In this document: positions 20,414 to 45,959 of the stretch, piece by piece
Position numbering within the stretch: the stretch's first letter is position 1
Layout: every line of letters starts with the position of its first letter
Assembly (NCBI GenBank): GCA_902523435.1
Contig: CABYZM010000004.1
Span: 7,501-71,500, forward strand
Origin: an uncultured SAR116 cluster alpha proteobacterium
GTDB taxonomy: Bacteria > Pseudomonadota > Alphaproteobacteria > Puniceispirillales > Puniceispirillaceae
Reading direction: 5' to 3'
Length of the DNA stretch: 64,000 nucleotides
Made by a program: the position numbers and the translations under genes
The notes under the pieces: generated by a model
What the model was told of the DNA's origin: nothing
The model's database searches: none
The model's input: only the letters and a program-made list of their open reading frames with translations

Positions 20414-21367
20414 TTACTTGTTTTTCTGCTCTGCTGCAAGCGGGTGCGCGCCGGTGACTAGCTGGTAAAGGCGATCAGAGCGGGTGGTTGTGTAGATTTG
20501 TGTAGTAGCGATATCCGCATGACCAAGTAATGTCTGCAAACTGCGCAAATCTGCCCCATTATTCAACATATGCGTGGCAAAAGAATGCCGCAGCACATGC
20601 GGACTGACCCTATCCGCGCGCAAGCCGGCGTGGGCGGCCATTTGTTTCAGCAAAACACTGAATTTCTGGCGGGTAAGTTCTGATTTTGCATCAGCGAGAA
20701 GCTGATCCGAATGGGTCACAGGGCCATCCGCGTCACGGTGCGCCAGCCAAAGCCTCGCCACCTCAACAGATACAGCTGTCAAAGGGGACAGCCGTTCACG
20801 CCCTCCCTTGCCTTTAATAACCAGCATCTGTTTGTCTCCGGCCATGTCCTGAACACGCAAAGCCAGTAATTCTGAAATCCTCAGACCGCCAGCATATAAA
20901 AGCTCCAACCCAGCCCGCATTTGCAGGGCTTGTGTCTCTGGAAGATGCGCGCTGGCCTCTATCAAGGTTATAACCTCATCCTCCGACAGGCTTTTTGGCA
21001 GGCTCTGCGGCAGCTTCGGGCTGTCAAGGAACTGAGATGGGTTATCTGTACGATGATTTTCCGCAACCATCCAACTCATAAAATGACGCAGAGTAGACAG
21101 GCGCCGGGCAATTGTGCGGGCGGTCAGGCCCTGCTTATACCAAAGTTGAAGCTCCTTACGCAGATCATTTGCAGACGCAGTTTGCAATCCCCCCGCAGCT
21201 GTATCTGATGACAGATTTGCGAGGCCGGTTGCCACAACGTAAAGATCGCTATGGTAGGCGGACAATGTATGCTTTGAAACCGCTTTTTCAGCAGCAATGG
21301 TCTGCAGAAACCGGTCAATCAGCCCAGTATCATTCCGCACCGCCGATATCTGACCCTGCTCCTCCAT
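20414..21367 (-). CDS. xerD: Site-specific tyrosine recombinase XerD
   Basis: SPHVLRHSFATHMLNNGADLRSLQTLLGHADIATTQIYT catalytic motifs; chromosomal-type context next to accA. Confidence 0.9.
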   Translation of the reverse strand: MEEQGQISAVRNDTGLIDRFLQTIAAEKAVSKHTLSAYHSDLYVVATGLANLSSDTAAGGLQTASANDLRKELQLWYKQGLTARTIARRLSTLRHFMSWMVAENHRTDNPSQFLDSPKLPQSLPKSLSEDEVITLIEASAHLPETQALQMRAGLELLYAGGLRISELLALRVQDMAGDKQMLVIKGKGGRERLSPLTAVSVEVARLWLAHRDADGPVTHSDQLLADAKSELTRQKFSVLLKQMAAHAGLRADRVSPHVLRHSFATHMLNNGADLRSLQTLLGHADIATTQIYTTTRSDRLYQLVTGAHPLAAEQKNK

Positions 21368-44144: not shown

Positions 44145-44669
44145 TTAGGCAGCTGCACTGTCACCATTCTGTTCTTCAAGGCAGACAGCCACAAAATCAC
44201 GCGTTATAATTGTGATTGACGTCTCATCATCTACCCATAACAGGCGGTTATGACGACCTGTCTCACCCTTATCGCGTATCAGTTCCGTCTGAATGGCTGT
44301 ATCTATTTCACTTATCAGGTTTAGCGCATCGCCCTGAACCAGAATGGGCATATTTTCTCGTAAAAACGCCTTGATAATGCGTGCGGCGTGTAATTCTTCA
44401 GCCAACATCTCAAGATGCATTTCACCAGACGGGATTATTAAGGCGTCATAATCAACTGCGAGCGTTTCTGAGAGCTGGGAATCAACAGGGTAAGACATGC
44501 CTAGCTGTGTCCCTGTCCGGCCCTGTACTAGTCCTGTAGACGCAGAAATCACTCTCAGCTGTGCGTTCTGGCCAATTAGCATCCTCTGAATTTCAACAAA
44601 ATTCTTTTCTTCAAATCCGGTGGCAACCATGATTGCAATTTTTTGACCTGAAAGCGTTGTCTTCGTCAT
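44145..44669 (-). CDS. DJ-1/PfpI family protein
   Basis: KIAIMVATGFEEKNFVEIQRML...YDALIIPSGEMHLEML; diverged nucleophile region. Confidence 0.7.
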   Translation of the reverse strand: MTKTTLSGQKIAIMVATGFEEKNFVEIQRMLIGQNAQLRVISASTGLVQGRTGTQLGMSYPVDSQLSETLAVDYDALIIPSGEMHLEMLAEELHAARIIKAFLRENMPILVQGDALNLISEIDTAIQTELIRDKGETGRHNRLLWVDDETSITIITRDFVAVCLEEQNGDSAAA

Positions 44670-44989
44670 AAATATCACTCCATTTATGCATGTATTCGCC
44701 GTAAACTGATTTTAATGTCCTTGTTTGTAGTATCCTTGTTAACCGCGTCTGACCATAGACACCAGCTAAGTGCTACTCATTATTGAGCGGGCTGTTTCAA
44801 CTCTTCGTTGCCCACCATGTATATTTTGACCGGGAAAATGCCGATTAGGCACAGATATAAACCTAGTTACCGATTATGCGCGGTTTATACAGAGGGTAAG
44901 AAAAGATTTCAACCAATTTATGCGACATTGAGGTTGATTCAGGTTGGCATACCTGTTGGCGCTCTCTGACACTAAATAGCCAGACGTAA

Positions 44990-45066
44990 TGGAGCGGACG
45001 ACGGGGTTCAAAAATGCGAACTTCTAGCTTGGAAAGCTCATGCTTTGTCGACTGGTCTGCACCCGC
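44990..45066 (-). tRNA. Degenerate tRNA-Gly(UCC)-like sequence, probable tRNA pseudogene
   Basis: Minus strand GCGGGTG CAGACCAGTCGACAAAGCA TGAGC TTTCCAA GCTAG AAGTTC GCATT TTTGAAC CCCGT CGTCCGC T CCA: 7/7 acceptor pairing incl. wobbles, U73-CCA, TCC anticodon; D, anticodon and T stems mismatched. Confidence 0.5.
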
Positions 45067-45320
45067 ATTCTAATCTAAGGGAGTGTCGACGTTCAGAAAT
45101 TCTGTCAAGGCAATAGGTTTCTTTCAGGTCTATATTTTTGACACTTTATGTCTGCCAGATTAACACAGGTGTTTAGATACAAGTTAGGATTGTCTGATCT
45201 TCATAACAGCATTTAGCGTATAGAAAAGAAGAGAAATCAGGCATCAGCTGCTAGGGTACACATCGCTTGGTTGCATCAATGACATTTGTCACAAAAATGA
45301 GTAAGGATCGGATTTGAGTC

Positions 45321-45959
45321 ATGACACCATATGACAGCACTACACCTGAAAGAGAGAGCAGCACTGCATCTCAGCTGGAAACAGTAGAACAAAGACCAAG
45401 CAGGGAAGACGCCGAAAAAGCCGTAGAACTGCTGCTGCGCTGGGCTGGGGATGACCCGTCGCGCGAGGGGTTAGTGGATACACCTGCCCGTGTTGTCAGA
45501 GCTTATGAAGAATTTTTTTCCGGCTATCAAGAAGACCCTGAGGATATGCTAACCCGGACCTTCGAAGAGGTCGAAGGCTACGATGATATGGTGATGTTGC
45601 GCGGTATTGATCTGCAATCCCATTGTGAGCATCATATGGTTCCCATTTTGGGGCAGGCGCATATTGCCTACCTACCCGATCGCCGTGTTGTCGGCATATC
45701 CAAGCTAGCCCGTGTTCTGGATAGCTTTGGTAGACGCTTGCAAACACAGGAAACAATGACAGCACAAGTCGCAAATGCGATTCAGAACGCATTGAAACCA
45801 AAAGGTGTTGCAATCCTTGTTGACGCGAAACATCAATGCATGACGACAAGAGGCGTGAAGAAGCCCAACGTATCGATGGTTACCACTAGGTTTACTGGAC
45901 ATTTCAAGGATAATGCTGAACTGCGCGATCGTTTCTATCAGCATATTAAGCTTGGATAG
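45321..45959 (+). CDS. folE: GTP cyclohydrolase I
   Basis: [53 protein letters not shown]. Confidence 0.97.

Follow-up and report, generated by a model that had tools for sequence, protein, structure and literature searches.

A probable unitary pseudogene derived from tRNA-Gly(CCC), located upstream of folE in SAR116 alphaproteobacteria

Introduction

Bacterial tRNA pseudogenes, which have been counted with tRNAscan-SE (PMC9858662), share homology with functional tRNAs and have lost their structure. As for the decoding of glycine codons, the E. coli tRNA-Gly(UCC) reads GGG, with the mnm5U34 modification improving the reading, and in Mycoplasma mycoides one tRNA-Gly(UCC) serves all four glycine codons (PMC10853795). 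At many named SAR116 folE loci we found a tRNA-Gly(CCC) gene upstream of folE and on the opposite strand; other folE loci are without it. Here we describe a 77-nt element with an encoded CCA that occupies this place, at 44990..45066 on the minus strand, in a 64,000-nt stretch of DNA (the window) from an uncultured SAR116 alphaproteobacterium. An earlier note, made from the letters of the window, had taken the element for a degenerate tRNA-Gly fossil.

Results

The reverse complement of positions 44990-45066 reads GCGGGTGCAGACCAGTCGACAAAGCATGAGCTTTCCAAGCTAGAAGTTCGCATTTTTGAACCCCGTCGTCCGCTCCA. Read in register with intact orthologs, the element pairs at all 7 positions of the acceptor stem (two of them G-U) and keeps U73 and CCA; the cloverleaf structure is lost, with 1/4 pairs left in the D-stem, 2/5 in the T-stem and 4/5 in the anticodon stem. 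The sequence, coordinates, strand and pairing counts given in the earlier note proved correct to the base, and its view of this minus-strand element as a degenerate tRNA-Gly fossil was right. The acceptor 5′ strand, GCGGGTG (45060..45066, minus strand), is the same in every copy that we compared. The best-preserved part is the 3′ end (44990..45009, minus strand), comprising the 3′ side of the T-arm, the acceptor 3′ strand and UCCA, with one variable column among three decayed copies. The former anticodon (45031..45033, minus strand) is now TCC, while intact orthologs have CCC and the copies of two sister species, G006 and G004, have TAC and TCT, respectively. The TT of the variable region (45019..45020, minus strand) holds a one-base T insertion common to the three decayed copies.

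General tRNA searches passed over the element. ARAGORN reported no tRNA in the window and Rfam no match at gathering threshold; a local Rfam search of 901 bases, relaxed to E ≤ 10, returned no tRNA either, and an RF00005 search of the whole genome did not list the element's place. The element thus does not reach the RF00005 gathering score expected of a functional tRNA, and the generic covariance-model hit that the earlier note had proposed as a check was absent also at relaxed threshold, but a model of the relatives' own tRNA-Gly(CCC) genes does detect the element. Built from 16 intact genes, this covariance model gave a single match in the 64 kb, at 44990-45066 on the minus strand (37.3 bits, E = 4.2e-8), running end to end (model positions 1-76), which establishes a homology with functional tRNA genes that exceeds chance. 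A pattern of paired acceptor plus CCA was dropped as proof of tRNA origin, since its 13 sites in the window fall within the 10-24 seen in shuffled sequences, and an Rfam match to SNORD56 near 45101 (E 5.3) was set aside as chance. The match to the CCC model, joined by the spacer-search matches in eight further genomes presented below, shows that the element is real and not a chance resemblance. The case is proven by homology and not by folding.

The element lies between a DJ-1/PfpI family gene (44145..44678, minus strand; PF01965, E 6.9e-10) and folE, encoding GTP cyclohydrolase I (45321..45959, plus strand; PF01227, E 1.3e-72), which served as syntenic anchors on its two sides. When the whole 642-nt spacer was used as DNA query against 41 related genomes, two full-length matches of about 85% were obtained, in G004 and G006, and eight further genomes matched at spacer positions ~310-389 alone, that is, at the element. 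In those eight, ARAGORN called a tRNA-Gly(CCC) at the matching place, and folE stood at the corresponding place in seven of the fetched loci; the sole exception, G009, had no folE within the fetched stretch. The position of the element is therefore orthologous to the one at which relatives carry an intact tRNA-Gly(CCC), upstream of folE. The closest view of the intact state comes from G007, a genome of the same genus rated 100% complete, in which the order homocysteine S-methyltransferase, DUF1289, DJ-1/PfpI (L187:6217-6747), tRNA-Gly(CCC) (~L187:7055-7130) and folE (L187:7398-8021) is collinear with the window and gives the intact tRNA gene the same neighbors as the element. The decayed form was found solely in the window's genome and the two sister species.

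Some variation was seen elsewhere in the group. At two SAR116 loci (L099:1784-3001 and L116:1735-3001) about 1.1 kb separates tRNA-Gly(CCC) from folE, as against the usual ~0.2-0.3 kb, and the gap in L099 holds an ORF whose sequence resembles an ABC-transporter ATPase. In a family-wide search, four genera (g5, g7, g8 and g9) had no tRNA-Gly(CCC)-like best match, the best being at the level of tRNA-Gly(GCC) or lower, a pattern that suggests more losses of the CCC isoacceptor.

Scores against the CCC model form a decay series, from 108 bits in G001 and 104.8 in G007 through 71.6 in G006 and 57.7 in G004 to 37.3 in the window. With RF00005 the G006 copy still passes the cut-off of 29 bits (35.1), and the G004 copy falls just under it (28.5). 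The G006 copy (L040:1502-1578), having a UAC anticodon and standing above the Rfam tRNA cut-off, could be mis-annotated as tRNA-Val. With the G001-3 sequence as reference, nine lesions are common to the three decayed copies (C11A, G26A, C27T, A28G, C34T, T42A, G45A, +T47 and G52A); by parsimony, these shared lesions indicate that the loss probably began in the common ancestor of the three, after the split from G007. Private changes that followed broke further pairs, so that the stems are broken differently in each species, and the anticodons now read UCC (window), UAC (G006, which also has no U33) and UCU (G004). Since a functional glycine tRNA that decoded the Arg codon AGA would do harm, the last of these argues that the G004 copy is dead.

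To compare rates, variable columns were counted in a three-way alignment of the window's genome, G004 and G006. The element has 19/77 (25%), a level equal to that in the rest of the spacer (132/565, 23%; p = 0.78) and well above that of the flanking coding sequence (76/804, 9%; p = 0.0003). Selection is thus relaxed, and the alignment indicates that, from the split of the three species onward, the element has evolved in the manner of spacer. Only the acceptor stem with UCCA departs from this: of the 27-31 inferred changes, about 1 falls in its 18/77 sites (P ~0.003-0.007). This weighs little, because the region was picked after looking and because, elsewhere in the spacer, 15% of 20-base windows likewise have no more than one variable column. 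That selection would keep the acceptor stem and CCA within a tRNA gene otherwise dead, so as to serve a recombinase as target, for example, or to yield a tRNA-half RNA, is very improbable.

Discussion

The parent of the element could be sought in another glycine tRNA, as its anticodon reads UCC and the earlier note had it as a tRNA-Gly(UCC) remnant, possibly a decaying duplicate. Alignment to the genome's own tRNA-Gly(UCC), by which the note had meant this to be judged, gave 50/77 identities, below the 58/77 obtained with the orthologous tRNA-Gly(CCC) and close to the 51/77 with Gly(GCC). The UCC look results from C34T, and the sister species have UAC and UCU instead. All the syntenic orthologs carry CCC, which already refutes a UCC duplicate and leaves it scarcely credible; what stands here is the ancestral gene, still in its original syntenic position.

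The same note had offered two further readings. A scar left at an attachment site by an integrative element that used the tRNA gene would agree with the 3′ end being the best-preserved part of the element, as the tRNA 3′ end is the usual att core. The 20-nt 3′ end, however, does not recur in the window (≤3 mismatches), so that there is no 3′-end direct repeat, and we found no remnant element or integrase nearby: the window's sole Phage_integrase match, to an XerC/D-like protein, lies ~24 kb off. Related genomes, where an integrated element was to be looked for, show no insert at the locus in the sister species and, in G007, neighbors that are contiguous and collinear with the window. With gene order unbroken, a scar is very unlikely. 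The recombinase itself, a tyrosine recombinase at 20414-21367 on the minus strand, scores below the NCBIfam XerC and XerD equivalog cut-offs and above the PRK00283 subfamily cut-off. Little more probable is a tRNA-like RNA kept for a role other than decoding, for example in the regulation of folE or as a tRNA fragment. The sparing of acceptor stem and CCA speaks for it, with a P value obtained post hoc; against it, stem breakage differs between species, conserved 20-nt stretches are as common in the spacer as noted above, and a simple sigma-70 scan gave no promoter-like site on the element's strand. Such a role is unsupported, given that the drift of the element keeps pace with that of the spacer.

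We conclude that the element is very probably a unitary pseudogene, that is, the single-copy and in-place remnant, of the SAR116 alphaproteobacterial tRNA-Gly(CCC), because intact orthologs are syntenic with it and the lesions shared by three species were followed by drift at the spacer's rate. On this evidence it is most likely without current function. An intact GGG-reading tRNA-Gly(CCC) upstream of folE would have been disabled in the common ancestor of the three species, after which the three copies would have drifted at the spacer's rate, each in its own way. The loss was presumably tolerated since tRNA-Gly(UCC) carries the GGG load: with its wobble uridine modified via the MnmE/MnmG pathway, this tRNA would read GGG as well as GGA and make the CCC isoacceptor dispensable. 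The window's genome and G006 both have an intact tRNA-Gly(UCC), with the same sequence, and all three genomes with a decayed copy have MnmG. None of the three, each 64-77% complete, yielded an intact tRNA-Gly(CCC); at this completeness, a CCC gene that has moved elsewhere and stayed intact is unlikely but retains some probability. Avoidance of GGG tied to the loss was considered and not seen. The GGG share of glycine codons is 18-19% in the window and 19.5% in G006, unchanged with respect to G007 (19%) and G001 (20%), and as this share is not lowered, the loss has left no mark on codon usage; GGG codons are still common despite it.

One locus presents the gene in its intact form, at two intermediate stages and in a far-decayed state, a well-resolved isoacceptor loss in progress that could be of use in dating when tRNA-Gly(CCC) was lost within SAR116. 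As the G006 copy is still above the Rfam cut-off, automatic calls may take the sister copies for odd tRNAs with UAC or UCU anticodons, and caution is advised. The loss itself is clean but ordinary, of a kind already known and with nothing new in kind.

Compared with the tRNA-Gly(CCC) genes of SAR116/Puniceispirillales (e.g., L035 and L038), the element is alike in locus, orientation, acceptor stem, U73, CCA and 58 of 77 bases, and differs in its broken D-stem and T-stem, the one-base insertion in the variable loop and the change of anticodon from CCC to UCC. With respect to bacterial tRNA pseudogenes in general, the window element is too decayed for ARAGORN or Rfam RF00005, and the loss is a unitary one, accompanied by intact orthologs and by two less-decayed copies in sister species.
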